64,000 bases of DNA from assembly GCF_003862475.1 (NCBI RefSeq), contig NZ_RRCO01000001.1, positions 682,001 to 746,000 on the forward strand. The letters are read 5' to 3'. The notes under the pieces were generated by a model. The model had not been told where the DNA came from. It searched no databases and was given only the letters and a program-made list of their open reading frames with translations. This DNA is from Lachnoanaerobaculum gingivalis (GTDB taxonomy: Bacteria > Bacillota > Clostridia > Lachnospirales > Lachnospiraceae). A program made the translations under genes and the position numbers. This document shows positions 36,664-64,000 of this stretch, in pieces; position 1 is the stretch's first letter, and every line of letters begins with the position of its first letter.

Positions 36664-37250
36664 AAATTTCTCCTATTCTGTAAAGCATTTACCTTTTTAG
36701 TGGCTGAATTTATATATTTTTTAAGCTTATCTTTCAGTTCTTCATCCGAAATATTTCTGTTTTGTTTTTATAAATTTTTTTTTATTTCTTTCATTGATAT
36801 ATCTGAAAACCATGATAGCATTGTAGTTAACAAATTCGTTCTTATGCTTGCAACGGTCATTTCCCAAATAAATTCTGTATACTGCCACTTATCTACATCA
36901 ACCATATTCTCTCCCACTGCTTCACCCATATATGCACCTCCTTGTACAGCCTTTGCCAAAGCAATATTATATAATCCGTTATCAATTATTTTACTAATTT
37001 CTTTCAATTCTTGTACTTCTTTTTGCACCACTGGCTACCGCAGAAATACCCCATACAGCACTTGAGATTACTCCAGCTACTATAATATATCCTATTCCTA
37101 CACCTACTGTACGTCCTGATATAGTTGTATCTACAATTGCATTATTCCAATTAATGCTCCTTTTTGTGCCTTCCTTTAAATTGCCAAGTCCGCTCTTATT
37201 ATAACCATAGATATTACATACCTCATTGATATTTACTGCATTTTACTACT
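36664..37250 (-). pseudogene. Displaced Rhs C-terminal tip, frameshifted (copy 1)
   Basis: A piece homologous to the tip of the 1715-residue Rhs protein (its residues about 1525-1715). It holds QKEVQELKEISKIIDNGLYN and the GENMVDVDKWQYTEF region, but frames change near GTGGTGCAAAA and again in an A9 tract (after SMKEIKKNL). No start codon context. The upstream end (37,172-37,240) is a Rhs core scar. Together with the family A copy before it, it forms one 964-bp unit. Confidence 0.82.
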
Positions 37251-37258
37251 TTTTAGGT

Positions 37259-37627
37259 TTATCTACTTTTACCACTTATAAAATCTTTTATTCTTTTTTT
37301 TAGAATTATTATACCAAGAATAACAATTCCGGATAAATATATTCGTATGTATAAATTAATTAATATTTTATATAAAAACACTATATTTAAGAGGTATGCT
37401 ATCCACACTAATATAAATGCTACACTTTCAGTAATTATTATTATATATACTAGCCAATATACTTTTTCATTCCTTGGCCACAAAAAAAATAATATGCTTG
37501 TATACTTATTAAGCTTTATTTTTTTCTTATATTTTTCTATATCAGTTTTATCTGTTCCCCAACAGACACCATAAATTAGTATATACAATGCAAAAGTCCC
37601 TAATAATAAAGTCAATATATCCAGCAT
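37259..37627 (-). CDS. Small membrane protein, immunity candidate (family A, copy 2)
   Basis: 122 residues with three membrane segments and the FFLWPRNEKVYWLVY hallmark. Identical to the copy at 38,223 from about residue 19 onward, differing in the first 18 residues (MLDILTLLLGTF here). Part of the 964-bp repeat. It lies directly behind a frameshifted Rhs tip, so it is a spare immunity gene. Having several intact copies may give dosage or protect against sister-strain toxins. Confidence 0.78.
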   Translation of the reverse strand: MLDILTLLLGTFALYILIYGVCWGTDKTDIEKYKKKIKLNKYTSILFFLWPRNEKVYWLVYIIIITESVAFILVWIAYLLNIVFLYKILINLYIRIYLSGIVILGIIILKKRIKDFISGKSR

Positions 37628-38214
37628 AAATTTCTCCTATTCTGTAAAGCATTTACCTTTTTAGTGGCTGAATTTATATATTTTTTAAGCTTATCTTTCA
37701 GTTCTTCATCCGAAATATTTCTGTTTTGTTTTTATAAATTTTTTTTTATTTCTTTCATTGATATATCTGAAAACCATGATAGCATTGTAGTTAACAAATT
37801 CGTTCTTATGCTTGCAACGGTCATTTCCCAAATAAATTCTGTATACTGCCACTTATCTACATCAACCATATTCTCTCCCACTGCTTCACCCATATATGCA
37901 CCTCCTTGTACAGCCTTTGCCAAAGCAATATTATATAATCCGTTATCAATTATTTTACTAATTTCTTTCAATTCTTGTACTTCTTTTTGCACCACTGGCT
38001 ACCGCAGAAATACCCCATACAGCACTTGAGATTACTCCAGCTACTATAATATATCCTATTCCTACACCTACTGTACGTCCTGATATAGTTGTATCTACAA
38101 TTGCATTATTCCAATTAATGCTCCTTTTTGTGCCTTCCTTTAAATTGCCAAGTCCGCTCTTATTATAACCATAGATATTACATACCTCATTGATATTTAC
38201 TGCATTTTACTACT
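37628..38214 (-). pseudogene. Displaced Rhs C-terminal tip, frameshifted (copy 2)
   Basis: Second copy of the tip fragment described for 36,664-37,250, with the same two frame changes, at +964 bases. Its upstream end (38,136-38,204) is again the Rhs core scar. Confidence 0.82.
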
Positions 38215-38222
38215 TTTTAGGT

Positions 38223-38591
38223 TTATCTACTTTTACCACTTATAAAATCTTTTATTCTTTTTTTTAGAATTATTATACCAAGAATAACAATTCCGGATAA
38301 ATATATTCGTATGTATAAATTAATTAATATTTTATATAAAAACACTATATTTAAGAGGTATGCTATCCACACTAATATAAATGCTACACTTTCAGTAATT
38401 ATTATTATATATACTAGCCAATATACTTTTTCATTCCTTGGCCACAAAAAAAATAATATGCTTGTATACTTATTAAGCTTTATTTTTTTCTTATATTTTT
38501 CTATATCAGTTTTATCTGTTCCCCAACAGACACCATAAAGTAGTATATATCCTAAAAAAGTCACTATTGCTGTAGTACAGACATTCGACAT
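38223..38591 (-). CDS. Small membrane protein, likely immunity of the full-length Rhs (family A, copy 1)
   Basis: 122 residues, three membrane segments. It begins nine bases after the stop of the 1715-residue Rhs gene, the expected position of the cognate immunity gene. The first 18 residues (MSNVCTTAIVTFLGYILL) differ from the tandem copies, showing a recombination joint within the gene. A polytopic membrane immunity protein fits the hydrophobic, glycine-rich tip of this Rhs, which could act in the membrane (inference). Confidence 0.82.
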   Translation of the reverse strand: MSNVCTTAIVTFLGYILLYGVCWGTDKTDIEKYKKKIKLNKYTSILFFLWPRNEKVYWLVYIIIITESVAFILVWIAYLLNIVFLYKILINLYIRIYLSGIVILGIIILKKRIKDFISGKSR

Positions 38592-38600
38592 AATATCCTC

Positions 38601-41600
38601 CTATTCTGCAAAGCATTTTCCAACTTTGGTCGATCTATTTATATATCTTTCAAATTTTTCCCTCAATTCCTCATCAGACATATTATTGTTTTGTTTTTTA
38701 TAAATTTTATCTTTGGCAAATTTCATTACTATATCTGATAATATAGATTTAGCTGTCGCTAAGACATTTGTTTTTAAGCTTGCTAATGTCATCTTCTGTA
38801 CAAAATCTGTATACTGCCACTTGCCTACATCAACCATATTCTCTCCCGGTGCATCACCCATATATGCACTTCCTTGTACAGCCTTTGCCAAAGCAATATT
38901 ATATAATCCATTATCAATTATTTTACTAATTTCTTTCAATTCTTGTACTTCTTTTTGCATTGTTCCACCGGCTGCCGCAGAAATACCCCAAACAACACTT
39001 GAGATTGCTCCATCAACGAAATGCTCCTGCAAGCTTTTACTTTTAAATTCACCATTAGCAGCAACCTTTGTAACATAATTACCTGCTCCAACGGACATTC
39101 CTCCGGCTACTAAATATCCTATTCCTACACCTGTACCTGCTATTGCTCCTACTGCAAGTCCTGATGTAGTATCTACAATTACATTATTCCAATTAATATT
39201 CTTTTGGTTACCTTTTGCTATTTCTATTTCTTCTGAAATGAGTCCACCGGCAAATCCAAATACTGCTCCTATACCTGCACCAATAAGTATAGTCGGTGTT
39301 TTTCCATCTAAATCAACAAACTTCTCAGGGTTCCCCAAGCAATACCCATACTGATTCAATGAAGTGGGATAATAAATCTCTCCCTTTATCCAATCCTCTC
39401 CTGCAAACCTGCCAACTCCAGGCACGTACTCTCTCGCCTGTGCAAAGTAGGTATCAGCTACATTATCATATCTATAGCCTGTATACCCGAATGGCTGTAT
39501 CTGTCCCTGTGTATTATAAGTATCTTCTCCAAAATCATCATAGCCATATACAGCTTGACTTTCTCCACCCTGCTCAAGAAGGCGAATTGTACTTCCAAGC
39601 TCATCCTGTAGATAGGTAAACTCTTTTTCCCCTTCTTCCATATATGCAACATTAAAGTCCCATATATAGCTTTGTATTGCCTGACTGCCTCTTTTTATCG
39701 TTTTATTTTGCAAAAGGTTATGATATGCCCTTGTTCTGTCAAGTATATAGCTTTCTTCATATGACGGTGTCAGTTCTGACAAGTTTTCTTCCAGAATGCT
39801 CTTAAGCCCGTCTTCACCATAGCCTATCTCCCTTTCATACTCTTTTATTCCCATCCTGTTTCCAAGCCCGTCATAGCTGTAGCTTCTTGCTTTTCCTGAT
39901 TTCGAGTAACTTAAACCAAGCCTACCTGTAGTGTCGTATTCGTAGACTCTTACTCTCTTCCCTCTATCTGTTATTCCGATAAGATTTCCTCTTTTATCGT
40001 ATTCGTATGTCTTATTTCCCTGTAATCCTCCCTCTTTTATAAGTCTGTCCAAGGCGTCATAAGTATATCTTATCTCTAAATCATTACCACTTTTTAGTGA
40101 TTCCCTGTTTCCATAGGCATCATAGGTATACTTACTTACAAGTCTGTCTCCTCTTTTTACTTCTATAAGTCTGCTTAGGGCATCATAACTGTAATAAAAG
40201 GTGGATGAATCATCCCATAGTTTATGTATTATCTTTTCTTTATTATCATTTTCCTTTATTCCCTTCGAGTTTACATCCCTATGTCTTACAATCTTTGTTT
40301 TATTCCCTAAAAGATCATAATCATAGGCATACTCTTCAAGCTTTACATTATTCTTTAAATGACAAAGACCGCTTAAGAGTCCTCTTTCATTATATTCATA
40401 GATACTGCTTATATCATCAGACATATCCTTTCTGATAAGTCTTCCTTCTTTGTCATAAGTATAATCCACCCTTTTATTTCCTGAGGTAAGGCTTGTCAGT
40501 CTTAAATATTTATCGTATTCATATGATACACTGCTTCCGTCAGGATATAATGTCTTTAATCTCTCACCATACCTTCCGTATCTATAACTTACTTCTTCAC
40601 CGTTATAATCCACTACCTTTGTAGTTCTACCAAACTTATCACTATCTATATTTATAGTACCGATTACATCCTTTACCTGACTTAACTGTCTTAAGCTGTT
40701 GTAGGTGTACTCTACACTTTTTCCGTCATTGTATATAATACTTTTGATATCTCCGGCTTCCGTGTAGGAATAGGCGGTATTATAACCTTCTCTGTCTTTC
40801 TTTTCTGTCACTCTTCCTAAAAGATCATATGAAAATGTCTCTTCATATCCAAGTGCATTTATAACAGACACTATATTTCCCATAAGATCTCTTTTGTATC
40901 TTGTAACCCTTGGGATACTTACTGCATCTATAGGTTCTTTTAGGGAAGTATTTGCCGATTCAACACCTGATATAAGTTCTTTATCACCTTCATGTCTATA
41001 TACGGTAATTAACCTGCCCACCTTATCATAATTGTATTCCGTTCTGTTTCCCATGGCATCTATTACTGATATCAGTTTTCCTCCAAGAGAATAATTGTAT
41101 TTTGTCATATGTCCCATGGCATCCGTTTCTTTTATTACATTTCCCATGGCATCATATTCAAAGCTTTGTTTTTGTGAAAAGTTATTCTTTGCCTCTATAA
41201 GTCTGTTCAGCTTGTCATAGGTAAATAAAACATAATCTCCCTTTTCATTCTCCCTTTTTACTACATTCAAATTTTTATCATATGTGAATATTTCATATCT
41301 TTTATCAGGATATGTTTTTCTTTGTAGAAGACCACCTTTATAATAGTCATAAAGAGTTTCCAATTCCCCCGACTTTATCTTTTTTATTTTTCCAAGTTCA
41401 TTGTATTCATATTCTCTTGTAAAACCGTACACATCTGTTTCAAGTATTATCCTTCCCAAAATATCATACTTTATTTTATGTGTTCCAAGATTATTTGTTA
41501 TATTCAGGCTATGTTTTCCATACTCATACTCTGTTTCCTCTCCGGATTTATCTCTGTAAGATATAAGTCTGTTTCTTTCATCATATGAATACTCTTCAAT

Positions 41601-43748
41601 ATTTCCCAAAGGATCGATTATCTTTATCAGATTTCCGTTTGCATCATAGTGATACTTATACTCACCCTTATTTTGCAAAGTCTTTTTTTCTACCAGATTT
41701 ATTGCATTATAACTATACTCTACCTCTCCTCCGTCAGGATATACTTCCTTTATAAGGTTTTGGCAAAGATCATACTCCATTCTGTAAATCTCACCGTCAG
41801 GCAGGGTAAAATCATTTATATTATTTAACTCATTATAGTTTATCTTTGTTATACCGCCTCTAAAGTCTTCAAATAAAGACAGTTTCCCATTCTCTGTATA
41901 GCTATATCTACAGGTATTTCCTAAGGCATCCTTTACAGCGGTCAATAAGTCTCTCTCATCATAGTAAAACCCTGTTTTATTACCTTCTCCGTCAATGCTT
42001 GCAATCACACGATTAAGGTTATCATACTCATAAGTGGTTACTTTACCGTTTTCTTCTTCGATACCGGATATATTCCCTCTGTTATCATAGTAAACTTTTC
42101 TTTTGGAATTGTCAGGCAAAGTTATTATAAGGCTTTCTGTGTTGCCAGCTTTGCTGTAATCAAGCTTTGTACCTTCTCCTAAAGCATTTTTACTTTCTAT
42201 GATTCTTCCTTTATCATCATAGAAATACTTTTCAATCTCTTCACCGTTTATATAATGGACTGCTGCATTCCCTTCTCTGTCATAGTCTATACCTTCGCTT
42301 TGATTGTCAGGAAAAGTAACCTTTGTAAGTTTTCCTTCCTTATCATACTCATAGGATGTTATATTTCCTTTTTTATCCTTATATGAGGTCAACAGATTTC
42401 TTGTATCATAAGTAAAGCTTTCCGACTCACCTGCGTACTCACTTTCTATATTTCTGAAATTCTCATCATGTATATGTACCTCTGCGTTTCCATTCTGATT
42501 TATGACAAAGGTCTTACTTTCCTCACTTTTATACTCATATCTTATTATTCCTCCGTCGGCAAATTTTTGTATCTTTACCCTGTTTTCACCGTCGTAAAGG
42601 TTTTTAAGGACATAGATTCCCCTTGGATTTTTTATCTTTTCCAAAAGTTCATCTTTATAGTAATAGCTGTATGTAAGTTTTCCCTCATGGTATACTTTTC
42701 CAAGTTGATTTCCTTCATACCTGTACTCTACTTTTCTTCCGGTATGATCTTTTATCTCACTTAATTTTCCGAAGTCATTGTAGTAAAGGGCTATTTTACT
42801 TCCACTTTTTTCGGATACTTCTATCAGTCTGCCTTTTGCATCATAAGAAAGATAGACCTCCTCGCCATCCTTTCTTTCTATACGCAAAAGCTTCCCCTCT
42901 TTATCAAAAAGGTATATAAGTCCGCTTTCAGCATTGTAAATAAATCCTGTTTGCGTTTGCTTTAAACGATTGAAATCATCAAAAACAGAATGTATTCGTT
43001 CTTCTTCATCCACAAAATATGCTTCATCCTGTCCGTCGGATAAATGTAATATATATCCGTTTGCTTCACGACTTATAGATATTTCATAGCTGTGTCTCCA
43101 ACCTTTTCCCAGTACTCCCGTTCTTTTTTCACTACTGTTATAAGACCTTATAAAACCTACAGGAAATTTTGATCTGAGCACAATATCTTCTTTACTATAT
43201 GTAAAGTTTCCGGTATTTGCATTTACCGGATCTCCCGTCATGGCACATAATGCACCCCTTGCCCCCTTTAAAAAATCTTCCATACTGTTGTTTTTCATAA
43301 GATCTTTTAAAAGTTCATTCCATGAGGCAAAGGCAGGACCGTTCTTTTCAAGCATCTTTGAAATGATTTTATAGATTTCTTCCTTTAGCTGTACATCACT
43401 AAGTTCTAAAACCGCCGGCACTGCATTATTTCTTACACGATTTAACGCACCCGTATAAACCGCACTGTAACTTCCATCCTGATTTTTGATTATCTTTACT
43501 CCTGCACAGGCTGCCAAACTTCCCATAAGTTTTAACATAAGCTTGTCTTTCTCACTTGGCACTCCTGCCGTGACAGGCATTGCACCAAGCATCATTGGAA
43601 GCAGTCTTTCAAAGTCCTTTGACATATCCTTATAAGGCTCTTTTAATTCTTCATATGTCCTTGATTTTTTCCCCTTAAGCAATACTTTATCAGCTGATAT
43701 ATTTACATCACTTTTTAACTTTATGGAACTTCCCTTTACTTTTTTCAT
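38601..43748 (-). CDS. Rhs/YD-repeat polymorphic toxin, full length
   Basis: 1715 residues. The first 160 or so form a helical N-terminal region; DUF6531-like start of the Rhs shell follows (GDPVNANTGNFTYSKEDIVL, about 168-187). Over 25 YD-type repeats (YDxxGNxxxxxD) form the cocoon up to QYGYCLGNPEKFVDLDG (about 1465-1482), which replaces the usual DPxGL cleavage motif. The tip of about 235 residues has glycine-zipper hydrophobic stretches (GAGIGAVFGFAGG, GTGVGIGYLVAGG) and a helical C-terminal domain of unknown activity. No signal peptide, so export must use a special route; spike and chaperone candidates lie just upstream in the operon. Ends at the family A immunity gene. Confidence 0.92.
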   Translation of the reverse strand: MKKVKGSSIKLKSDVNISADKVLLKGKKSRTYEELKEPYKDMSKDFERLLPMMLGAMPVTAGVPSEKDKLMLKLMGSLAACAGVKIIKNQDGSYSAVYTGALNRVRNNAVPAVLELSDVQLKEEIYKIISKMLEKNGPAFASWNELLKDLMKNNSMEDFLKGARGALCAMTGDPVNANTGNFTYSKEDIVLRSKFPVGFIRSYNSSEKRTGVLGKGWRHSYEISISREANGYILHLSDGQDEAYFVDEEERIHSVFDDFNRLKQTQTGFIYNAESGLIYLFDKEGKLLRIERKDGEEVYLSYDAKGRLIEVSEKSGSKIALYYNDFGKLSEIKDHTGRKVEYRYEGNQLGKVYHEGKLTYSYYYKDELLEKIKNPRGIYVLKNLYDGENRVKIQKFADGGIIRYEYKSEESKTFVINQNGNAEVHIHDENFRNIESEYAGESESFTYDTRNLLTSYKDKKGNITSYEYDKEGKLTKVTFPDNQSEGIDYDREGNAAVHYINGEEIEKYFYDDKGRIIESKNALGEGTKLDYSKAGNTESLIITLPDNSKRKVYYDNRGNISGIEEENGKVTTYEYDNLNRVIASIDGEGNKTGFYYDERDLLTAVKDALGNTCRYSYTENGKLSLFEDFRGGITKINYNELNNINDFTLPDGEIYRMEYDLCQNLIKEVYPDGGEVEYSYNAINLVEKKTLQNKGEYKYHYDANGNLIKIIDPLGNIEEYSYDERNRLISYRDKSGEETEYEYGKHSLNITNNLGTHKIKYDILGRIILETDVYGFTREYEYNELGKIKKIKSGELETLYDYYKGGLLQRKTYPDKRYEIFTYDKNLNVVKRENEKGDYVLFTYDKLNRLIEAKNNFSQKQSFEYDAMGNVIKETDAMGHMTKYNYSLGGKLISVIDAMGNRTEYNYDKVGRLITVYRHEGDKELISGVESANTSLKEPIDAVSIPRVTRYKRDLMGNIVSVINALGYEETFSYDLLGRVTEKKDREGYNTAYSYTEAGDIKSIIYNDGKSVEYTYNSLRQLSQVKDVIGTINIDSDKFGRTTKVVDYNGEEVSYRYGRYGERLKTLYPDGSSVSYEYDKYLRLTSLTSGNKRVDYTYDKEGRLIRKDMSDDISSIYEYNERGLLSGLCHLKNNVKLEEYAYDYDLLGNKTKIVRHRDVNSKGIKENDNKEKIIHKLWDDSSTFYYSYDALSRLIEVKRGDRLVSKYTYDAYGNRESLKSGNDLEIRYTYDALDRLIKEGGLQGNKTYEYDKRGNLIGITDRGKRVRVYEYDTTGRLGLSYSKSGKARSYSYDGLGNRMGIKEYEREIGYGEDGLKSILEENLSELTPSYEESYILDRTRAYHNLLQNKTIKRGSQAIQSYIWDFNVAYMEEGEKEFTYLQDELGSTIRLLEQGGESQAVYGYDDFGEDTYNTQGQIQPFGYTGYRYDNVADTYFAQAREYVPGVGRFAGEDWIKGEIYYPTSLNQYGYCLGNPEKFVDLDGKTPTILIGAGIGAVFGFAGGLISEEIEIAKGNQKNINWNNVIVDTTSGLAVGAIAGTGVGIGYLVAGGMSVGAGNYVTKVAANGEFKSKSLQEHFVDGAISSVVWGISAAAGGTMQKEVQELKEISKIIDNGLYNIALAKAVQGSAYMGDAPGENMVDVGKWQYTDFVQKMTLASLKTNVLATAKSILSDIVMKFAKDKIYKKQNNNMSDEELREKFERYINRSTKVGKCFAE

Positions 43749-43794: not shown

Positions 43795-44340
43795 TTAGTG
43801 CATATTTGGATTTACCTGCTTTAGTTCTCCCATATATTCACCAAAGAGAAATAATAACTCTTTAGATGTATCTTTAAAGATATCCGTATCGATTACCGAC
43901 TCTAAGGCTTTTTTCCAAAGAATTGAAATGATATCTTCATATCCCTTTAAAACAAACCTTATTCCTTCTTCTATCTCCGGCTCACTTAACAAATGTTTTC
44001 CTATACCCTCCATCATTTCTTCACGAATTTTAAAGGAATCTTTTTTCATAAAATCCGGAATCCAATACCTGATACCTAAAGGTTTATCTATATACAAGCC
44101 CTCATCTGAGGCATATAGCATAATTTTATAGCTTTTTGTATAAATACTTGTATTAAGGAAAAATAATATAAGATACTTAAGCTTATATATCCACTTTTCC
44201 TCTATCACATTTGACAGTATGCTTTTTATTTCTTCAGATAAATCCTGTATATTATAATCTCTATACTCCCGAATTTTTTCGCTGAGCCACCTGTATCTGA
44301 AACTTTTAAAATATTCCTTTTTTTGTTTTTCCCTATTCAT
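43795..44340 (-). CDS. Hypothetical protein of the injection locus
   Basis: 181 residues, Lys/Glu/Ile-rich, probably all-helical and cytoplasmic. It overlaps the chaperone candidate by eight bases and ends 46 bases before the Rhs gene, so it is co-translated with both. No family recognised. Possible roles are a second Rhs chaperone or adaptor, or an immunity protein for an upstream effector; position favours a role in loading the Rhs protein. Confidence 0.75.
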   Translation of the reverse strand: MNREKQKKEYFKSFRYRWLSEKIREYRDYNIQDLSEEIKSILSNVIEEKWIYKLKYLILFFLNTSIYTKSYKIMLYASDEGLYIDKPLGIRYWIPDFMKKDSFKIREEMMEGIGKHLLSEPEIEEGIRFVLKGYEDIISILWKKALESVIDTDIFKDTSKELLFLFGEYMGELKQVNPNMH

Positions 44341-44920
44341 TTGTCTTCTTTCTTACCGGTTTTATATTTTGAAGTATGTCATTCACAGCTTTTTTCCATG
44401 CCCATGATAATGGCTCCCTACAATTAAACATAATCTGCACTGTTTCTCTACCTATCTTCCCCAGACCTGTTTTATGATATATTCTCTCATCTATTCCGGG
44501 TATAATAAAATCAAAGCAATACATTTTTACACATCCTTCTTTCTCCAATTCATCATATTCTAAAAACTTTATCCCGGTATGTGCTTTTGAAAGCAGATTT
44601 TTAAAATCAGTTACCAAAGTTTTTACTTCTGTATCTTCACTGACTTTAATAAGGCTAATACTTAGATTTACATCTCCGGCAAGATTTGTTTTTATTATCT
44701 CAGGTCTAAAATTGGTAGGATATTTTATTTCTCTTATCTCTTTTGGCATATCTATAAAAGATGAAGGGGTGTATATGGATATGACATCATTAAAGTATGA
44801 AGCTTTTATAAAAATCTCAAGCTTACCGTCTATAAAATACCCTTCTTTTAGAGACATATCTTCATTCCCACAGTATTCTAATTTAAGTGGAATAATTTTT
44901 TCGTCGATATAGTTGCTCAT
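44333..44920 (-). CDS. DcrB/DUF1795-like protein, Eag-type chaperone candidate
   Basis: 195 residues, cytoplasmic. The pattern ISIYTPSSFIDMP, then KYPTNFRPEIIKTN, a central LEYDELEKEGCVKMYCFDF and a C-terminal Trp-rich helix (EPLSWAWKKAVNDIL) is that of the DcrB/Mog1-like fold. DUF1795 proteins of this fold (EagR) bind the N terminus of Rhs and other effectors and mount them on the VgrG spike in Proteobacteria. Being encoded between a DUF4280/LRR pair and the Rhs gene supports a similar role. The fold assignment is by pattern and memory, not by search. Confidence 0.65.
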   Translation of the reverse strand: MSNYIDEKIIPLKLEYCGNEDMSLKEGYFIDGKLEIFIKASYFNDVISIYTPSSFIDMPKEIREIKYPTNFRPEIIKTNLAGDVNLSISLIKVSEDTEVKTLVTDFKNLLSKAHTGIKFLEYDELEKEGCVKMYCFDFIIPGIDERIYHKTGLGKIGRETVQIMFNCREPLSWAWKKAVNDILQNIKPVRKKTNE

Positions 44921-44944: not shown

Positions 44945-45664
44945 TTAATAATACTCTATAATAACTCCAGACTCATATTTAATATCCAAATGGAAGCTTT
45001 CAGGTAACTTGATTTTATTTAATTTTATACATTCATCAAAAAGATAACCTTCTGCATCTATATACCGTAGCGATTTTGGGAATTTTACTTCTTCTAAATC
45101 CATCGCTCCCATAAAAACTTCACCACCTAAATATATTAAACCCTCCGGTAATTCTACATTTTTTAGACCTGTATAGCAAAATGCCAGTTCTCCTATTTTT
45201 TTTATGCTTTCAGGAAATTCTATGTACTGCAAATTACTGCATCCTGCAAAAGCAGCTATCCCAATATTTTCTAGTTTTTTATTTAAATGTACTGTTCTTA
45301 AGTTTTCACAACTTTCAAAACAAAATAGTGGGATTTCCACCAAATTTTCCGACAACTCTACTTCTGTTAAATTTTTACATCCCGAAAATGCAGCTGAATT
45401 AATTTTAACTACACTGTTAGATATAATAATTTTTTTGAGTTCAGAACAATTTTTAAAAGCACTCTCTCCAATTTCCATTACCCCATCAGGAATTTTAATT
45501 TCCTTCTTTGGCATTATATATGCTGAAATACCCATTTTGTATTTAATTAAAACATTATTTTCAATTAGAAATTTAGATTGAAAATTTAAAATGATATAGC
45601 ATAAGATAACACATATAAACAGAGTAATTAAAACATTATTATACTTTTTACTATTATATACCAT
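44945..45664 (-). CDS. Membrane-anchored leucine-rich repeat protein (BspA-like), immunity or surface protein
   Basis: 239 residues. An N-terminal membrane anchor (about 11-28) is followed by a short linker (KYKMGISAYIMPKKEIKIP) and about seven LRR_5/BspA-type repeats (IGESAFKNCSELKKI, INSAAFSGCKNLTEV and so on). It starts 19 bases after a DUF4280 gene and is a close paralogue of the 243-residue protein at 55,523, which follows the other DUF4280 gene. Repeating the pairing at two sites suggests a functional link, for example immunity against the DUF4280 effector end. AGGAG precedes the ATG. Confidence 0.82.
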   Translation of the reverse strand: MVYNSKKYNNVLITLFICVILCYIILNFQSKFLIENNVLIKYKMGISAYIMPKKEIKIPDGVMEIGESAFKNCSELKKIIISNSVVKINSAAFSGCKNLTEVELSENLVEIPLFCFESCENLRTVHLNKKLENIGIAAFAGCSNLQYIEFPESIKKIGELAFCYTGLKNVELPEGLIYLGGEVFMGAMDLEEVKFPKSLRYIDAEGYLFDECIKLNKIKLPESFHLDIKYESGVIIEYY

Positions 45665-45683: not shown

Positions 45684-47120
45684 CTAATTAATACCTTCCA
45701 TATCGTCACATATTCTTTTTATTTCATTATTGATTACATCGTTTACACTTATACTTGTATCAAATTTATATAATAACTTAAAGCTTCCTTTTTCATACTT
45801 TACTCCCTCTAATTGTCTGCCTATACATAGTTCAGAACTCCCTGAAAAATTATAGTGATAATAATTATACACTATTACTGGTCTATCCCGTTCATAAATC
45901 CAGTCTCCAGGATATCTGTTACTCTTCACTTCAATTATTATATAGTCGTTATTTGAACTTACTTTTTTAAGGTTATCTCTGAATTTTTTTAGATTAGCAT
46001 CATATATATTATCAAATCCTAATAATAAGACCGAAAGAGCCACTCCTGCACTTGTACTATCCATACCTACTTTGATGGCAGTAACATTTAGGATATTACT
46101 TACCCACCTTGGTATTGACCTCGAATCTATAATATTATCAATTAGCTTTTCTAATAGCAAAGCGTACCATGAGTTAAGATAGTATATACTTCTTGTAGCT
46201 CCATGATGATTCTCTTTTACCATTTTTTCATAATTCGTAGGGTATATGTCTTCATGCTCTTTATTAATAACCCAAACCCCTGATACTTCCTCCCTTTCAC
46301 CATTTTCAGTTTTCACCTTTTTTAATATATGTTGGTCCAAATTCCCCTTGAGTACATAATCAAACTGGTACATGTTGGGAGCATCTATCTCAATATAATA
46401 TTCTATTCCGCTATTTAAAATTATTTCAGCATAGATACATATCTCACCACTTCCCTTCACTTTTTCAATTAGTTCGTATGCACCTATATATTTAATAGAT
46501 CCCAACATATTTTTCCAATAGATAAAAATTGAACCCAGATCTGTGATTGACTTACGAATATTATAGTCTATATATATACAAAAATTATAAATTCCTGAGT
46601 TTTTAACCTTTACATGACCTATAAAGTCTTTTTTGTCACTTTTGCGACTCCAATTTTTCTTTTCATCTTCAACTATTTCTACAGCATATTTTATTTTCAC
46701 ATTATCATAGCTTGGTAAAGTTTGCCCTGATGTCTTAAATGAAACTAAACCACCCTTATTACATGTGGCTAAAGAGTCCTCCATAACGGCATAACTTTCC
46801 TCACCAACTGCGGTATCAAATATTTTCATGTTTGAATTATCGGTAGCCCACCACTTTCCAAGTTTAGGGTCACATTCACAAGGTTTACTCCTGTTTTTAT
46901 TGCACATTCCAAAGCCTTTTATATTGTCAGTAGTACTGTCATTTTCTGTAATTAAAGGCCTTCCATCTGAAGTGTGCACTCCATGATCATCTTTCAAGTT
47001 TAATACGCATGTTTTGCTTCCATAGCTGCAGGAAACCTCTGCACCTCTTACCACATATTCATATCCTCCATATCCCTTCATTTCCTGATGCTCATACATT
47101 TTCTGTATACCGTCTGCCAC
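45684..47120 (-). CDS. DUF4280 (PAAR-like) spike-tip effector candidate
   Basis: 478 residues, GTG start at 47120 (its paralogue starts with ATG at the same place), behind AAAGGGG. N-terminal DUF4280 domain: YEYVVRGAEVSCSYGSKTCVL, conserved Cys in GFGMC and CECDP, and CNKGGLVSFKTSGQ (about residues 15-125). A beta domain (RKDFIGHVKVKNSGIYNF type, about 150-270) follows, shared with the 498-residue paralogue. The last 200 residues differ between the two and contain a hydrophobic helix (about 350-368), as expected for an effector end. Sits after two VgrG-like genes, where a PAAR tip belongs. Confidence 0.85.
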   Translation of the reverse strand: MADGIQKMYEHQEMKGYGGYEYVVRGAEVSCSYGSKTCVLNLKDDHGVHTSDGRPLITENDSTTDNIKGFGMCNKNRSKPCECDPKLGKWWATDNSNMKIFDTAVGEESYAVMEDSLATCNKGGLVSFKTSGQTLPSYDNVKIKYAVEIVEDEKKNWSRKSDKKDFIGHVKVKNSGIYNFCIYIDYNIRKSITDLGSIFIYWKNMLGSIKYIGAYELIEKVKGSGEICIYAEIILNSGIEYYIEIDAPNMYQFDYVLKGNLDQHILKKVKTENGEREEVSGVWVINKEHEDIYPTNYEKMVKENHHGATRSIYYLNSWYALLLEKLIDNIIDSRSIPRWVSNILNVTAIKVGMDSTSAGVALSVLLLGFDNIYDANLKKFRDNLKKVSSNNDYIIIEVKSNRYPGDWIYERDRPVIVYNYYHYNFSGSSELCIGRQLEGVKYEKGSFKLLYKFDTSISVNDVINNEIKRICDDMEGIN

Positions 47121-47167: not shown

Positions 47168-48409
47168 TTACTCACTTATATACACTATCTCTTCTTTACT
47201 GCTTAGTCTTATATTTCTTGCCTTTATAGTCAATTTATCAGCTGCACTTATGCTCAAATCTCTACCGCCTGTAAGCTTGAATCTTCTATCATTTAATGTC
47301 AGTATATCATCTGCAATGAAACTTATTCCCTCCTTTGAGAAATTAAGACTTTTCTTTCCAACTTCAAATTGCTTTTTATTTTCATCACTACCTTTACTGC
47401 CGAAGGTTCGTACTACATACATATCTCCTGTTCCCATACCTGATATATAAAGTTGTGCTTTTTCTCCTACATCAGGTACCGCATATAATGCATTTCCGGT
47501 CTCAGGATACCACTCAAATCCATAATCCGGCTCTTTTTTGTCTATATCAAGTCTTAAGTATACTTTCCCATCCTTATATTTCTTAATTTTTCCCATAAGG
47601 CTCAAACCTATTATATTTTCATTTCCAAGCGGATATATCATATCGTCTATATATGACCTTTCAACTCCTTGAAAATTAAATATCAGTTCACCCTTTGTAA
47701 ACTCCACCTCTTTTTTATATAAAGTTAAAATCTTATTATCTAATGCTATGTTATCACCTATATCATAAGAGTTATATGTCCTTAGTCTATACTCTATCCG
47801 ACTTGTATTCTCCTTTTTCTTGATCAGATCTCTGCTCTCACTTATAATACCTCCGGGCTCAATCATATTCCCTGTATGTATGCCCATATGAATATGTGGC
47901 CTATCATATTCCATACCCGGATACAGAAATGTTTTTATGTGGGATGCCATCCTAACTGCAAATGCCCAGGCACTCTCCTTATAGCAAAGTACAGGCCTTT
48001 CAATTTCCTTATCCTTTATATTGTAGTTGCCGATATTTCCTGAGTATCTTCTAACCACATCACATGCAAGGTCACTATAAGTTTTTTCTATATTTTGAAA
48101 TAATTCTGTATGCTCTTTATTGTCTAATTTTTTACTGTATGAATATGCTTTAAGGTCAAAATAATGTACATCGGCGGATGAATGAATGCTTATTTCTTCC
48201 ACAAATCCTCTAAATACAGTGTTTCCTTTGTATTTTATATGGATATCCATATCCTTTTTGTCTGTAAGAATTGTTTCTCCGGGTTTTTCCTCCAACACCC
48301 CGTTAATATTACAGCAGGTATGCATGTTTGGAACAGTTTTTATAACAAAATTTTCAACCAGATAAATAGGTAATGCTATTTCTATTTCTAAATTTTCTAT
48401 AATCAGCAT
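47168..48409 (-). CDS. VgrG-like spike protein 2 (phage late control D type)
   Basis: 413 residues from the ATG at 48409 (MLIIENLEIE), AAAGGG upstream; an in-frame GTG at 48430 is less likely. The first 230 residues have the gp27-like late-control-D pattern (YKGNTVFRGFVEEISIH, TYSDLACDVVRRYSG, YKESAWAFAVRMASH). An OB-fold (gp5-like, LMGKIKKYKDGKVYLRLDID to MYVVRTFGS) and a short beta-helix end (LNDRRFKLTGGRDLSISAADKL) complete the VgrG architecture. Encoded between VgrG-like protein 1 and DUF4280. Two non-identical VgrG proteins could form a mixed trimer or serve two effectors. Confidence 0.85.
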   Translation of the reverse strand: MLIIENLEIEIALPIYLVENFVIKTVPNMHTCCNINGVLEEKPGETILTDKKDMDIHIKYKGNTVFRGFVEEISIHSSADVHYFDLKAYSYSKKLDNKEHTELFQNIEKTYSDLACDVVRRYSGNIGNYNIKDKEIERPVLCYKESAWAFAVRMASHIKTFLYPGMEYDRPHIHMGIHTGNMIEPGGIISESRDLIKKKENTSRIEYRLRTYNSYDIGDNIALDNKILTLYKKEVEFTKGELIFNFQGVERSYIDDMIYPLGNENIIGLSLMGKIKKYKDGKVYLRLDIDKKEPDYGFEWYPETGNALYAVPDVGEKAQLYISGMGTGDMYVVRTFGSKGSDENKKQFEVGKKSLNFSKEGISFIADDILTLNDRRFKLTGGRDLSISAADKLTIKARNIRLSSKEEIVYISE

Positions 48410-48446
48410 AAAAAATCCCTTTCTGCTCACACCAAAAACACATTTT

Positions 48447-49799
48447 TCAACTTATATGAATACCTTCACCACTCACAGTTATTCCGTCTTTTAATATTAT
48501 TTGTGTATCATCTTGTAAAAGCATAATCCTTTTACCTGCCACCATGGATATATTTGAATCCTCACTGCTTATCTCAACAGTGTCCTTTGCTTTTATCAAA
48601 ATACTTCCACTGCTTACTATCTTGACTCCTGTACTGTCATTTAGTTCAATATAATCTCCCGTATCGCTTTTTATGGTTATACCGTCCGGTGTCAGTCTTA
48701 TTTCCTTTCCGTATTTATTTCTCCAAATCTTATTTTCAGGATCGGTTCGTATTCCATCGCCCTCATTTTCATGTACCGCACTGCAAACATAGGCTTTTTC
48801 TTCATTTTCTGTGGGAAAATACAGTCTTACGCTGTCTCCCTCTTCCGGCATACAATACCACCCCGCTCCGTCACTTGAAGAATATACAGTGGAAAAATCA
48901 AACCATCTTTCTATTTCTTCATCCTTATTTTCTATATCCTCTATTGCTATCTTAACCTTTTCTTTTTCTACATTTGTAACTTTAGCGTAAAGTGATGCTC
49001 CTATTATTTTTAAATCATACTTGCTTTCTTTTTTTACTATATAGTCTATATCCTGTGTTAAATAATATGTATGGTAAAGTTCACTTCCCTCTGTTTTAGA
49101 TAAAATTTTCACTATACGGTAGTCCCTTCTGTTAAAGCTTACTCTATCTCCTAAACAATGGATTTCCCTTGATTTGACTTCATAAACTGTATATTCTTTA
49201 TTTACAACAATACGCACATCACCAGAAGTTAAAACCTTGCTTTCTCTTTTTGGCATACCGAAAAAATACTTTACCCCCTCACTCTGATAATCCGGCATTA
49301 CCACTGTCTGCTTTAAAGCTGCAATCCTTTTTATAAAGTTCCAGTCATTTTCTTCATACTGTACCAAAAATCCGGGCAATACTCCCTTTCCGTCTTCTCC
49401 TGTTATATAGTATGACTCTTCATATCCTTCTTTTAATGCATTAAGTATATCAGCATATTCTCCGGTACCCTTAGAAAATCCTCTTGTATGTACTTTTTCT
49501 TCCATTAAAGAACTTCCTGTGATCAATTCCAATTCAACAAGGAAACTTCCACTTTCTTTAAAAAAACATATCTTTTCTAGCAGTCCATAAAATATCGTAC
49601 TCTCTTTATCTGTTTCATCAAGGGCATTAACCCTTACCCATCTTGTATTTTGGGCAGTATTAATATACTCTTCTTCTCTTTTTTCTTCTATTATGGCTCT
49701 TATTATTGCCCTACCATGCTTGCCCACCTCATGTTTTGCTTCATATCCCGTTACCGCAAGTACATCAAAAATATCAAGTTTTATAAGGTTTTCTCTCAT
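48447..49799 (-). CDS. VgrG-like spike protein 1 (gp27/gp5 type)
   Basis: 450 residues; its ATG overlaps the TGA of the preceding gene (ATGA). gp27-like part about 1-260 (GFLVQYEENDWNFIKRIAAL is the typical second-domain motif); OB-fold about 270-360 (YAKVTNVEKEKVKIAIED, WYCMPEEGDSVRLYFP); beta-helical spike to the C terminus (IRLTPDGITIKSDTGDYIEL, then repeating ISMVAGKRI-type strands). This is the spike of contractile phage tails and T6SS. Found in a Gram-positive without an outer membrane, it points to an injection-like or extracellular contractile particle. Confidence 0.88.
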   Translation of the reverse strand: MRENLIKLDIFDVLAVTGYEAKHEVGKHGRAIIRAIIEEKREEEYINTAQNTRWVRVNALDETDKESTIFYGLLEKICFFKESGSFLVELELITGSSLMEEKVHTRGFSKGTGEYADILNALKEGYEESYYITGEDGKGVLPGFLVQYEENDWNFIKRIAALKQTVVMPDYQSEGVKYFFGMPKRESKVLTSGDVRIVVNKEYTVYEVKSREIHCLGDRVSFNRRDYRIVKILSKTEGSELYHTYYLTQDIDYIVKKESKYDLKIIGASLYAKVTNVEKEKVKIAIEDIENKDEEIERWFDFSTVYSSSDGAGWYCMPEEGDSVRLYFPTENEEKAYVCSAVHENEGDGIRTDPENKIWRNKYGKEIRLTPDGITIKSDTGDYIELNDSTGVKIVSSGSILIKAKDTVEISSEDSNISMVAGKRIMLLQDDTQIILKDGITVSGEGIHIS

Positions 49800-50272
49800 A
49801 CACTCTCCTCCACTTCCACAAACTCTATTCCCTTAACATCTCTTCTTATTAAACTTTCTGCAAAATCAAGATTTACAATAAATCTTATCTTTTTATTCTC
49901 TTCCCTGACAGCTTTAAAGAAATTATTGAAATCAGTGTTTAGCAGATTTTCGGTATAAAGCAAATAATAGCTTTGCATCTCTCTACTCTCTTTATCTATC
50001 AGCATAACTCTTTTTACAAAGATTTCTATATCAAAAAGAAGCAATACCTCTCTAAATCTTTCTGAAATAAGAGGATATACATTCATCATCAAATCAGGAA
50101 ATATAAAATTCTTTGTTTTTTCTATTTCAAGAACAAGCTCTCTTGGCATTTCATAAAATCTTTCATTAAGAGCATCTATATTACTTGGAATATTCTCTAA
50201 AGTATATATTCGTATCCCTCTTGTATTTTCAAGATTTTCTTTTATATAAAAATATGGCAAGTTTCCTTTCAT
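49796..50272 (-). CDS. Imm11/Imm43-like (DUF1629-type) protein
   Basis: 158 residues from the ATG at 50272 (MKGNLPYFYIKE), with GGAG six bases upstream; a GTG at 50323 overlapping the FHA gene is less likely. The ordering FPDLMMNVYPLISERFREVL, VKRVMLIDKESREMQ and a closing VNLDFAESLIRRDVKGIEF is the pattern I associate with DUF1629-type immunity proteins. Located between a double-FHA gene and VgrG, an odd place for an immunity gene, so a structural role in the spike or adaptor is also possible. Low certainty on the family. Confidence 0.55.
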   Translation of the reverse strand: MKGNLPYFYIKENLENTRGIRIYTLENIPSNIDALNERFYEMPRELVLEIEKTKNFIFPDLMMNVYPLISERFREVLLLFDIEIFVKRVMLIDKESREMQSYYLLYTENLLNTDFNNFFKAVREENKKIRFIVNLDFAESLIRRDVKGIEFVEVEESV

Positions 50273-50316
50273 AGTTTCTCCATAATTATTCTCTTTATAT
50301 TTATTGTTCCATGTTT

Positions 50317-51282
50317 CTACCACTGATGGTATTCTTTTGCAAAGTCAAAGTAGAAAAACTTACTCTTGCCAACCTCCAAGATGTCTCCTTCTTTTAAATC
50401 TTTCGATGTATATGTTGCCGATTCATTTAGCCTTACAAATCCCATTGACTCTTCTCCAAGAAGTGTTCCTTGCAAATTTCTTGTATCATAGGCTATAACA
50501 GCATGATTCTTATCTCTTATATCTTCATCTCCTATAATCTGTATGCTCATAATATCATGACTTCCTATATAGTTTTTTCCTTCCACTACATTGTAAGACT
50601 TTCCTTGACGCTTTCCTTCTATACATACAAGCCATGCATAAATCGGCTTTTCTTCTTCAAAAGAAAGATTTTTACCTACCCTTTTATCTCTGTATTTTTC
50701 TTCCTCCGTTGGTTTTTCTCTTTTAAGCTTCCTATACTTTCTCTCTTTTTTTATCAGTTTTTCTTTATCCTCATTATCTATCTCTTCATATTCAAATCCC
50801 GGAAAATATTTGATGATTGCGGATAAAAGCTCCACATACATGAACTTACTCTCACCTATTTCCAAGATATCTTTATTTTTAAGAACATATTTATCATATA
50901 CAGGCTTATTATCCATATATACAATTCCGTCAGCTCTTGCAGGAATCAGGTTTGCTTCTCTTGTCTCTTTATCAAAAAACACCAATGTAAACTTACCCGG
51001 CATCTTCTCATCCCCAAGTATCTGTATCTCATTGTCTCTGTCCGTACCTATAAAGTTTTCTCCAAAGCTTATTACATAACTCTTTCCTCGTCTTACACCC
51101 TCTATACATACAAGCCATGCACATACCGGTCTCTCTTCCTTTAGGGAAAGTCCACATTCTTTTCTTAAATTTACATAGACTTTTTCAGGAGTGTCCAGAT
51201 CAAAACCGCAGTGCGGACATATTGTTCCATATCTTGTTTTTGAAAACCTGTGTCCGTAAGGGCAGTCCATTATGTTTGACAT
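50317..51282 (-). CDS. Zinc-ribbon protein with two FHA domains
   Basis: 321 residues, cytoplasmic. N-terminal zinc ribbon (CPYGHRF and CPHCGFD, about 7-29). First FHA domain about 50-155: GENFIGTDRDNEIQI is kept but the Ser/His recognition loop is replaced by KMPGKFTL. Second FHA domain about 210-318: NYIGSHDIMSIQI and DKNHAVIAYD retain the Asn-His pair. FHA domains bind phosphothreonine, so one site may be active and one structural. FHA proteins switch on T6SS assembly in Proteobacteria (Fha1/TagH). AGGAGG before the ATG. Similar in plan to the protein at the right edge. Confidence 0.88.
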   Translation of the reverse strand: MSNIMDCPYGHRFSKTRYGTICPHCGFDLDTPEKVYVNLRKECGLSLKEERPVCAWLVCIEGVRRGKSYVISFGENFIGTDRDNEIQILGDEKMPGKFTLVFFDKETREANLIPARADGIVYMDNKPVYDKYVLKNKDILEIGESKFMYVELLSAIIKYFPGFEYEEIDNEDKEKLIKKERKYRKLKREKPTEEEKYRDKRVGKNLSFEEEKPIYAWLVCIEGKRQGKSYNVVEGKNYIGSHDIMSIQIIGDEDIRDKNHAVIAYDTRNLQGTLLGEESMGFVRLNESATYTSKDLKEGDILEVGKSKFFYFDFAKEYHQW

Positions 51283-51301: not shown

Positions 51302-52078
51302 CTAATCCACCAAGATCTTTCTTTGCATAAAGCCTGTGTTTTTTTGTCCGTCCGGATCTTTTGCACTGTTTAATATATCCAAAAGTCCGGTATAAATTTC
51401 TTTATTGCTTAAGTGGGTTCCCTTTAGCTTCCCTTCTTTAAATGCAATATAGTTTTCTATAATACTTCTATCTATTCCTTCCATACTGTTTATGACCATA
51501 TAACAAAAGATTCTGTCAGTTTCTTCACATTTTTTTGTATTAAGGTATTCTTTAGCATATGCTTTTAATACATCTATATTAAATGACTTCTCACCATAAC
51601 CTGCATAATCTGCATTCATCAGATGTATAGTATCATACTCAGATCTCATGTCGGCAAAGTCAAGATAAGTATCCCTTAATATAAACCCCGACTTGAGCAA
51701 AAAGTCGCAAAGCAAAATCTCTCCATCACTATTTTCTTCCTCTTCAGACAGAAAAGCCTCTATTTCGCTTATTATAAAGTCTTTATCCCTTACCTCTTTA
51801 CGCTTTAACTTTAAATACTCCCTTTTCTCGGCATTCGTGTAGGCTACTTTTATTTCTTTATGTATCTGATATACCTCTCCTTTTAGCTTTACAATTCCCT
51901 TTCCTATGATAATACATTTATTTTCATGGTCTGAGCTTAATCTTAGGCCTCTTATAACTCCGTTTGTATATCCATCATAAAGAATTGAGAGCAGATCCCT
52001 TGGGTAGTCTCTTATTATTTCAAGTGCTTCTTTTTTTAAGATTCTTCCGTTCTCAAACAAAGGGTATCTGTTTTCCAT
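51302..52078 (-). CDS. Injection-locus protein, possible fibre or baseplate component
   Basis: 258 residues, not recognised by name. The N-terminal third (LKKEALEIIRDYPRDLLSI, then YDGYTNGVIRGLRL and IIIGKGIVKLKGEVYQI) has the pattern of phage tail-fibre or baseplate-attachment modules, in which a short beta unit describes position and orientation (GxxxGLxx..IxxGIxKxxGxxY). The rest is helical and acidic. AAGGAG before the ATG; 19 bases separate it from the Hsp70-like gene upstream. The structural reading is an inference from pattern and neighbours. Confidence 0.6.
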   Translation of the reverse strand: MENRYPLFENGRILKKEALEIIRDYPRDLLSILYDGYTNGVIRGLRLSSDHENKCIIIGKGIVKLKGEVYQIHKEIKVAYTNAEKREYLKLKRKEVRDKDFIISEIEAFLSEEEENSDGEILLCDFLLKSGFILRDTYLDFADMRSEYDTIHLMNADYAGYGEKSFNIDVLKAYAKEYLNTKKCEETDRIFCYMVINSMEGIDRSIIENYIAFKEGKLKGTHLSNKEIYTGLLDILNSAKDPDGQKNTGFMQRKILVD

Positions 52079-54736: not shown

Positions 54737-55429
54737 CTAATATATTGCTATCTCTCCGATTCTCATACTCTCACCTACTCCTATGACACCAAAATGATGT
54801 TTCCAAAAGACATCCATTTCATAAGACAATGACAAGAACATATCTTTAAGCATTTCTATTGTTTCAATATCTTTTTTTGTCTTATCCACCCCTGTAAAAA
54901 GAATAAGTTTTTTAACATCCTCACTATGAATGTAAAGATTGGAGTTTGGATAAAGCTCTCTCAATGCTTTTTTAAAAATGGTGATATAATCACCGCAGCT
55001 ATATAAATCAAGCAGACAAAATATAATTCTTTTCGCCTTTTCAAAGCCAAGATAAAATAGTGTCTCTCTAAATCTCTTCAAAAATGCTCCCGACTCTATC
55101 TCTTTTAAGATATACATCGCCCTAAGCTCCTTTTTATCCGTTCCGCTCCTAAGATCCCATACTGCAATATAATGCATCATCACATCCAGAAATAGTTCTC
55201 GTATATGTTCATATCCTACTATATCCGGCAAAAATATATCACCCAGTTCATTTGAAAAACGATACAAAGGATTCACTTCCAATTCCGTATCTTCAACTGT
55301 ATCATAATTTAAAAAATCAAAAGAACTTTCCGTATACGGGCTGGGACTTTTACTGTTTATAAATCTAAGTTCCTCCAATTTATATCCGTTTTTCTTTGCT
55401 TTTAATACAATTTCCCATATACAGTTCAT
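54737..55429 (-). CDS. Hypothetical protein of the injection locus
   Basis: 230 residues, cytoplasmic, unrecognised. It opens with MNCIWEIVLKAKKNGYKLEEL, has YRFSNELGDIF and MMHYIAVWDLRSG in the middle and closes with FWKHHFGVIGVGESMRIGEI. The compact, strongly patterned ends suggest a conserved family rather than a random frame. GTAGGAG before the ATG. Encoded between the LRR protein and the Hsp70-like ATPase in the same direction. A structural (baseplate or cap) role is possible but not shown. Confidence 0.7.
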   Translation of the reverse strand: MNCIWEIVLKAKKNGYKLEELRFINSKSPSPYTESSFDFLNYDTVEDTELEVNPLYRFSNELGDIFLPDIVGYEHIRELFLDVMMHYIAVWDLRSGTDKKELRAMYILKEIESGAFLKRFRETLFYLGFEKAKRIIFCLLDLYSCGDYITIFKKALRELYPNSNLYIHSEDVKKLILFTGVDKTKKDIETIEMLKDMFLSLSYEMDVFWKHHFGVIGVGESMRIGEIAIY

Positions 55430-55522: not shown

Positions 55523-56254
55523 CTATTCATAATACTCCACATTTACAGCATCATCATACTTCAAATCTAAAGAAAACCCTTTTGGTAATATTATTTTTTT
55601 TAAGCTTGGGCACTCATCAAAAAGATATCCTTTTGCATCTATTATTTCCAGTGATTTTGGAAACTTTATCTCTTCTAATTTCTCAGCACCCATAAATACC
55701 TCTCCACCTATATATTCCAAGCCTTCCGGAAGTTCTACTTTTCTTAAACCGGTATAACAAAATGAAAATTCATCTATTTTCCTAATACTGTTTGGGAAGT
55801 CTATATACTCCAAATCCTTGCAATTAGCAAAAGCAAACATGTCAATATTATCTAATTTTTCATTTAGTACTACCGTTCTCAAATGTTTGCAACCTTCAAA
55901 GCAAGCAAATGAGATTTCTGTTACATTCTCGGGTAACTTAACCTCTATTAAATTTTTACAACCTAAAAAAGCACAAGAATTAATTTTTACTACACTATCA
56001 GGTATAACTACTTTTTTTAACTCTGAACAATTTTTAAAAGCTTTTTCTCCAATCTCTGTCACACCATACGGAATCTCAATTTCCTTTTTGGGCATAATAT
56101 CTGCTAAAATCCCTCTTTTATATTCCAGTAGAACGTTGTCTTCGATTATAAACTTGTGTTGAAAGTTTAACCCAATATATATTACAACGGATATAATTAT
56201 GAATAATACTAAAAATGTGATTTTCTTTTTACTGCATCTATTGCAACTTCTCAT
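55523..56254 (-). CDS. Membrane-anchored leucine-rich repeat protein (BspA-like)
   Basis: 243 residues. N-terminal membrane anchor (about 12-28), linker with the motif ADIMPKKEIEIPYG, then about seven LRR_5 repeats (IGEKAFKNCSELKKV, INSCAFLGCKNLIEV and others). It matches the protein at 44,945 over the whole length, so the two arose by duplication of a cassette. Both follow a DUF4280 gene, here with one further LRR gene between. Immunity candidate for the DUF4280 effector, or a surface adhesin as BspA proteins often are. Confidence 0.82.
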   Translation of the reverse strand: MRSCNRCSKKKITFLVLFIIISVVIYIGLNFQHKFIIEDNVLLEYKRGILADIMPKKEIEIPYGVTEIGEKAFKNCSELKKVVIPDSVVKINSCAFLGCKNLIEVKLPENVTEISFACFEGCKHLRTVVLNEKLDNIDMFAFANCKDLEYIDFPNSIRKIDEFSFCYTGLRKVELPEGLEYIGGEVFMGAEKLEEIKFPKSLEIIDAKGYLFDECPSLKKIILPKGFSLDLKYDDAVNVEYYE

Positions 56255-60801: not shown

Positions 60802-60823
60802 ATCCGTATCAACTCCTATAATA

Positions 60824-63516: not shown

Positions 63517-64000
63517 CTACCATGAAAACTGCTTACCACATAAAGCAATATATAAAAACTCGCTCTCACCCATGGTAATTACATCATATGTTTCCAAAAC
63601 CTGAGGTGTATACACAGCTTTTCCATTTAAATAGGTAATCCCTCCTCCTTCGGTACATATCAAAGTTCCTTCAAGGTCTCTTTCATCAAAGGATAAAATA
63701 GCATGATTTTCCTGTTTTATTGCATTATCACCTATAATTTGAATATCCATAGCATCTGTTCTTCCTATATAGTTTTTCCCAAATACTACTCTATAATCCT
63801 TTCCATACCTCGGTCCTTTAATGCATACCAACCATGCACACACAGGCTTTGTTTTTATTCTGATTAGACTTTCTTCAAGTTCCTCGTCATCAAAAGATTC
63901 CTCAATTTCTTTTCTTTCAGTCATATCCATGTTACAGTATGGACATATATTTCCATATCTTCTCTTTGAAAACATATGTCCATTTTTGCATCGTATTAAA
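63517..64000 (-). CDS. Zinc-ribbon FHA protein, 5' end beyond the window
   Basis: About 160 residues are visible. The first ATG in frame (63,975) is not the start: the frame stays open to the window edge and reads LIRCKNGHMFSKRRYGNICPYCNMD, which aligns with the N terminus of the FHA protein at 51,282 (MDCPYGHRFSKTRYGTICPHC). So the zinc ribbon continues off the edge. One FHA domain follows (about residues 60-160 of the visible part): GKNYIGRTDAMDIQI, QENHAILSFDERD, GITYLNGKAVY. The Arg, Asn and His of a working phosphothreonine reader are kept. Start of the visible injection locus. Confidence 0.85.
   Translation of the reverse strand, partial: LIRCKNGHMFSKRRYGNICPYCNMDMTERKEIEESFDDEELEESLIRIKTKPVCAWLVCIKGPRYGKDYRVVFGKNYIGRTDAMDIQIIGDNAIKQENHAILSFDERDLEGTLICTEGGGITYLNGKAVYTPQVLETYDVITMGESEFLYIALCGKQFSW

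Follow-up and report, generated by a model that had tools for sequence, protein, structure and literature searches.

The window, by which we mean the entire 64,000-nucleotide stretch of Lachnoanaerobaculum gingivalis DNA that was analysed, contains an intact ORF of 195 aa with an ATG start, which occupies exactly positions 44333-44920 of the minus strand. The encoded protein, referred to below as DcrB-like, has a PsbP/Mog1/DcrB domain (residues ~46-188), preceded by an N-terminal tail (residues 1-45) in which a DEK[IV] motif is conserved. Homologues were identified in all 5 genus mates searched: in 4 of these they are intact or near-intact and share 58-93% identity, and the genus also has paralogues with 28-29% identity, the only type found in the fifth genus mate. 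Relatives outside the genus were obtained from Clostridium, Tepidibacter, and Bacillota MAG contigs. The ORF is a real gene that is conserved across Clostridia. A truncated paralogue was additionally observed at 755117-755470 of genome C1 (L083 9111-9386). Since it has neither a signal peptide nor a TM segment, the DcrB-like protein is probably cytosolic.

Read along the minus strand, on which all of them are encoded, the neighbouring genes start with a ~175-aa cassette protein (175 aa in the window; 49796-50323), which is Imm11-like in that its relatives reach Pfam Imm11 with an E-value of 6e-6. This is followed by a VgrG spike of 450 aa (48447-49799; profile match to the T6SS VgrG 8gra, E 1.7e-15), a second VgrG-like spike of 420 aa (47168-48430; VgrG profile, 2e-119), a PAAR-like DUF4280 tip of 478 aa with a C-terminal extension (45684-47120; domain match, E 3e-15), a BspA-type LRR protein of 239 aa with an N-terminal TM segment (44945-45664), the DcrB-like protein, p181 (43795-44340), and an Rhs protein of 1715 aa (38601-43748). 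As originally predicted, the DcrB-like gene is thus located two genes upstream of rhs, with the ORF of p181 intervening; it does not, however, directly follow the tip gene as had also been stated, because the LRR gene lies between the two. Two more genes of this BspA-type LRR kind, again encoding proteins with an N-terminal TM segment, are inserted elsewhere in the cluster (55523-56254 and 56350-57981). The intervening p181 belongs to a ~200-aa family that occurs once per VgrG cassette and matches no known fold; its own structure was predicted (pLDDT 74), without structural match.

Further genes of the cluster, likewise on the minus strand, encode an FHA-domain protein with two Yop-YscD/FHA stretches (50317-51282); the conserved p258 (51302-52078), whose gene is found immediately before the DcrB-like gene in the majority of Clostridium main clusters; a conserved 866-aa protein (52097-54697); p230 (54737-55429); a second DUF4280 protein (57998-59494); p471 (59521-60936), which like p230 is a conserved protein of the cluster; the conserved p612 (60824-62662), with a weakly PP2C-like N-terminus and one TM segment; the conserved p271 (62672-63487), with one N-terminal TM segment; and an FHA protein at the window edge (63517-63975), beyond which the cluster continues. 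In the 866-aa protein, the motifs DLGSTNTT and CGGGTTD resemble actin/Hsp70 phosphate motifs by eye; since a PDB search with this protein returned no match, "Hsp70-like" is a visual motif reading only.

Fold of the DcrB-like protein and comparison with Eag chaperones

Direct scans of the DcrB-like protein against Pfam, NCBIfam, and PHROGs yielded no match, a phmmer search of the single sequence against the PDB returned noise only, and none of 17 family members matches PF08786 at E<=1. Therefore, the DcrB resemblance is not derivable from standard domain calls. In 150 genomes of the host's family, nothing scored over the PF08786 cut-off, and those weak matches that were examined are other proteins, e.g., lipoproteins. 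The DcrB/Mog1-like pattern that had been claimed was borne out by a family profile of 17 relatives, which was searched against 177,635 PDB sequences and at E<0.01 retrieves DcrB alone (13cz, E 6e-4; 6e8a, E 8e-4; over ~148 positions), as well as by structure prediction. An AlphaFold2 model, for which the window protein and 18 relatives served as input, has a pLDDT of about 62-86 across residues 51-190, and its low mean pLDDT of 64.5 results from residues 1-45, which are not confidently modelled. A Foldseek search with this model at E<=1e-3 yielded 38 PDB chains, nearly all with the PsbP/Mog1/DcrB fold: PsbP was the top match (4e-7), followed by DcrB (6e8a, 5e-6) and PA94 (1tu1, 2e-4), and the SciW/EagT6 complexes were matched with E-values of 1e-4 to 6e-4 and target-normalised TM values of mostly 0.61-0.69. 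Alignment of families with hhalign gave 71% and a P of 3.7e-5 over 144 columns for DcrB, and a P of 0.006, colinear across 132 columns, for a set of nine Eag sequences; two unrelated families from the same cluster, used as controls, gave P values of 0.11-0.13 over 8-15 columns. In the same test, DcrB itself gave 0.06 against the Eag set, and the DcrB-like family is therefore no further from Eag than DcrB is. The protein has a PsbP/Mog1/DcrB fold and is homologous to DcrB; both structure and HMM comparisons with DcrB and Eag point to a DcrB/Eag-like fold and not to an unrelated one.

DcrB (PF08786; 6e8a, 13cz) is the sole significant sequence relative among solved structures, and the two share a near full-length colinear alignment and the same fold. 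However, DcrB carries a signal peptide and is a lipoprotein of the envelope, whereas the DcrB-like family is apparently cytosolic, adds the 45-residue N-terminal extension with its DEK[IV] motif, and is encoded within a secretion cluster. It should also be noted that the PsbP/Mog1 fold occurs in proteins without a secretion role and that PsbP, not Eag, is the top structural match, both of which, like the low mean pLDDT of the model, speak against the reading as a spike adaptor that we develop below.

With Eag chaperones (SciW, EagT6, EagR; DUF1795), the DcrB-like family has in common the fold, the small size, the probable cytosolic localization, the location near VgrG and an effector, and a domain start of the form [LI]P..[WF].D. 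An eLife article on the family (PMC7773334) links Eag proteins to effectors that possess N-terminal TM helices and the prePAAR motif, and the residues invariant in our set of nine Eag sequences, E7, D18, R40, Q98, and T113, provided a yardstick. According to the hhalign alignment with this set, R40 and Q98 are replaced in the DcrB-like family and D18 is kept; E7 falls outside the alignment, and T113 is absent from the window copy and kept only in its relatives from Clostridium. Besides lacking R40/Q98 and a PF08786 match, the family differs from Eag in that its gene is linked to VgrG, not to a single effector gene, and in that the client has no prePAAR motif or TMD. The genomic context can be gauged in the same way: in 6 of 7 Proteobacterial plasmid loci, the DUF1795 gene immediately precedes the Rhs-core gene, and rhs adjoins the DcrB-like gene in 0 of 33 loci, with one gene between them in the window. 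Of the original proposal of an Eag-type chaperone, the shared fold and the probable cytosolic localization thus stand, and the PF08786 match, the R40/Q98 signature, and a client with prePAAR and N-terminal TMD do not. On this evidence, the protein is not classed as a member of the Eag family, but may still work like an Eag chaperone or adaptor.

Linkage of the DcrB-like gene to VgrG cassettes and the place of Rhs

Across the 33 loci, which are related and in part located near contig ends, so that all counts are descriptive, vgrG adjoins the DcrB-like gene in 25 and lies within 6 kb in 30 (a spike-Rhs fusion, L089, was scored as VgrG). The ~200-aa, ~175-aa, and DUF4280 genes are each found within 6 kb in 28 of the loci, and Rhs in only 7. 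The distance matrices of DcrB-like and VgrG proteins from 28 cassettes correlate with r=0.93, a value that includes shared phylogeny. There is one DcrB-like gene per VgrG cassette, linked to VgrG, and it stays beside vgrG whatever the effector. Because the gene travels with the VgrG spike and not with the Rhs toxin, it is better read as encoding a spike adaptor than an Rhs-specific Eag chaperone. The original suggestion of an Eag chaperone that loads Rhs is thus not upheld in its specific form, and what stands is a broader statement: in monoderm Clostridia, VgrG/DUF4280 spikes have a conserved partner from the DcrB superfamily.

In Clostridium, the cassette order is DcrB-like, VgrG, ~200-aa, ~175-aa, DUF4280, and second spike with effector; one of the species with this cluster is C. 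beijerinckii (strain HUN142, L103). Iterated profiles revealed that p181 belongs to the same family as the ~200-aa Clostridium protein and the Imm11-like protein to the same family as the ~175-aa one. The window therefore contains the same five cassette families in shuffled order, which is the reason why the DcrB-like gene does not adjoin vgrG in this genus. This separation nevertheless counts against the spike adaptor reading, as does the existence of a few solitary or degenerate copies (L087, L073, and L083).

The surroundings of the gene could also suggest an immunity or regulatory protein for a neighbouring toxin that has no part in loading, since the locus near Rhs is toxin-rich and a neighbouring cassette gene is Imm11-like. 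Immunity genes, however, vary with the toxin and follow it, whereas the DcrB-like gene precedes it and is kept with unrelated effectors; because of this independence from the effector, we have set this reading aside as very improbable. The Imm11-like protein itself is present in nearly every VgrG cassette seen and, because of this conservation, is probably a structural or adaptor protein rather than an immunity protein.

More weight has to be given to the reading that comes closest to the original prediction, namely that the DcrB-like protein is an Eag-type TMD chaperone for the downstream Rhs, shielding its hydrophobic helices and mounting it on VgrG. The protein belongs to the fold class of SciW/EagT6, its gene is close to rhs in the loci of the genus, and the Rhs protein has TM-like segments at residues 1486-1549. 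These are, however, its only ones: in the N-terminal 200 aa of Rhs, there is no TM segment (best 19-mer, KD mean 1.41), and both PAAR and the prePAAR motif AARxxDxxxH are absent. Furthermore, some Rhs proteins of the genus that are encoded near a DcrB-like gene have no TM segment whatsoever, and locus L074 carries the gene despite a TM-free Rhs (KD below 1 past the N-terminal region, N-terminal maximum 1.31). In addition to the low number of loci with Rhs nearby, genome G502 has rhs adjoining vgrG with the DcrB-like gene absent, so that Rhs can be linked to the machine without this protein. A plausible Eag-like client does exist in the form of a strong TM hairpin (KD 2.6-3.1) that immediately follows the VgrG domain of the second spike in six Clostridium/Tepidibacter cassettes (L090, L094, L095, L096, L099, and L106), where it lies at about residues 500-550 and is followed by the toxin region; a seventh cassette with a spike-Rhs fusion has a hairpin with a KD of 2.5. 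As the other cassettes have none, a TM-shielding role is possible in those with a hairpin, but cannot be universal. Considering also the missing match to the Eag Pfam model and the replacement of two of five invariant residues, we regard a dedicated chaperone of Rhs as unlikely.

A different connection between Rhs and the spike is suggested by the N-terminal ~45 residues of Rhs in the window, whose sequence is similar to the end-of-spike segment found in spike-effector fusions of Clostridium. When a 3-row profile of this segment was compared with 12 sequences, six Rhs N-termini of the genus ranked first (5e-5 to 3e-3). Owing to this resemblance, the window Rhs might represent a split-off spike effector, although the similarity is suggestive only. 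Giant VgrG-Rhs fusions were observed at L089 and L175 (the latter in genome G343), with 2521 aa and at least 2285 aa, respectively. Next to the window rhs, 36768-38591 on the minus strand holds tandem duplicated orphan Rhs C-terminal fragments, each accompanied by a near-identical 122-aa protein with three TM segments (37259-37627 and 38223-38591); these look like displaced toxin-tip/immunity cassettes.

Tube-like proteins, a probable sheath, and reduced clusters

Just outside the window, at 746708-749893 of genome C1 (L083 705-3893), two tandem genes for ~141-aa proteins are located together with a gene for a 737-aa protein. The former belong to an Hcp/TssD-like tube family, 8 of 14 members of which match Pfam TssD (PF17642; best E 3.2e-4); for the single member that was scored on its own, the curated cut-off was not reached. 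Such tube-like proteins are linked to the DcrB-like/VgrG cluster. The 737-aa protein shows 53-58% identity across Clostridia and adjoins the tube genes; because of this linkage and conservation, it is a probable sheath, and a domain search revealed no recognisable sheath domain in it. A profile search of the PDB matched parvovirus NS1 only, over 40 residues (E 7e-4), which was judged spurious. That the sheath is assigned from gene order and conservation only is a further point against the spike adaptor reading. The phage sheath PF04984 and Baseplate_J PF04865 are absent from the genome, and viral contigs contained no relative of the DcrB-like or 737-aa protein; as far as that viral collection shows, the cluster is therefore not a prophage tail.

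Putative sheath and tube are both present in 14 of 15 genomes tested. In a sample of 391 Clostridia genomes, the 737-aa gene was found in 9 and a confident DcrB-like gene in 7, all 7 of which also have the 737-aa gene; weak DcrB-like matches in two other genomes (G296 and G390) disappeared with a better profile and were dropped. The remaining two of these 9, G262 and G502, have the 737-aa gene but no DcrB-like gene, in agreement with a broader profile. Within the stretch read, their reduced clusters (L170 and L168) keep the genes for the 737-aa protein, tube, ~200-aa and ~175-aa proteins, FHA, p271, p612, DUF4280, and VgrG, and are without DcrB-like, p258, the 866-aa protein, p230, and p471. 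The machine thus also occurs in two genomes that lack the gene, which weighs against the spike adaptor reading, and the DcrB-like protein is accordingly an accessory of the fuller version.

This pattern also bears on a structural role, in which the protein would be a baseplate or hub accessory instead of a chaperone, present in one copy per VgrG and needed to dock the spike into the baseplate. The one-per-VgrG linkage is fixed and independent of the effector. Also in line with such a role, the gene co-occurs with those for p258, the 866-aa protein, p230, and p471 and is missing together with these four from G262 and G502. On the other hand, the fold is the one seen in soluble adaptors and assembly factors, and the genes for the putative sheath, tube, VgrG, DUF4280, and the ~200-aa and ~175-aa proteins are retained in genomes without the DcrB-like gene, which makes its product dispensable for the core machine. 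Thus, we consider a structural accessory rather unlikely.

Proposed role and significance

Taken together, we favour as reasonably probable that the DcrB-like protein is a cytosolic DcrB-superfamily adaptor or chaperone that serves the VgrG-DUF4280 spike cassette of a T6SS-like contractile injection system in monoderm Clostridia. Before firing, it would bind the spike complex (VgrG, second spike, and DUF4280 tip) or the attached effector segment, keep this complex soluble and competent, and help to mount it on the tube. The effector mounted in this way would be Rhs in the window, with its N-terminus like a detached spike end, and in many Clostridium cassettes a toxin that a hydrophobic hairpin connects to the spike. 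The protein would hence work like an Eag chaperone or adaptor without belonging to the Eag family.

In work on polymorphic-toxin operons, a PsbP/MOG1-like protein has been proposed to act in T6SS operons as an adaptor that connects the toxin with the injection apparatus (Zhang et al. 2012, PMC3482391); the proposal covers these operons, and the part of the article that sets it out describes no Clostridia cassette with VgrG linkage. In Firmicutes, a 2021 survey (PMC8651086) reported VgrG (Phage_GPD) beside DUF4280 (PAAR_H2) with no eCIS/T6SS components nearby and speculated about an unknown delivery system. These are very probably the same loci as the VgrG cassettes analysed here, for which, in contrast to that description, we observed linkage to TssD-like tubes and to a putative sheath. 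In the openly accessible, published articles that the search covered, we found no description of the DcrB-like/VgrG cluster and no established delivery machine for VgrG-linked Rhs toxins in Gram-positive bacteria.

The DcrB-like gene provides a conserved handle on a putative Gram-positive delivery machine: the VgrG cassettes that it marks are accompanied by a putative sheath and TssD-like tubes, and the fold of its product hints at a way in which effectors may be mounted. If it is true that the protein is an adaptor, whether DcrB-fold spike loading is common to monoderm and diderm bacteria becomes a testable question. More tentatively, it is possible that the T6SS-like system of monoderm Clostridia uses a separate branch of DcrB-fold adaptors, with one adaptor for each VgrG, to handle spikes whose toxins are either attached through a TM hairpin, as in Clostridium, or carry a detached spike end, as Rhs of the window genus may do. 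If so, Eag-like loading would be general to VgrG-based injectors of both envelope types and attached to the spike, not to the effector.
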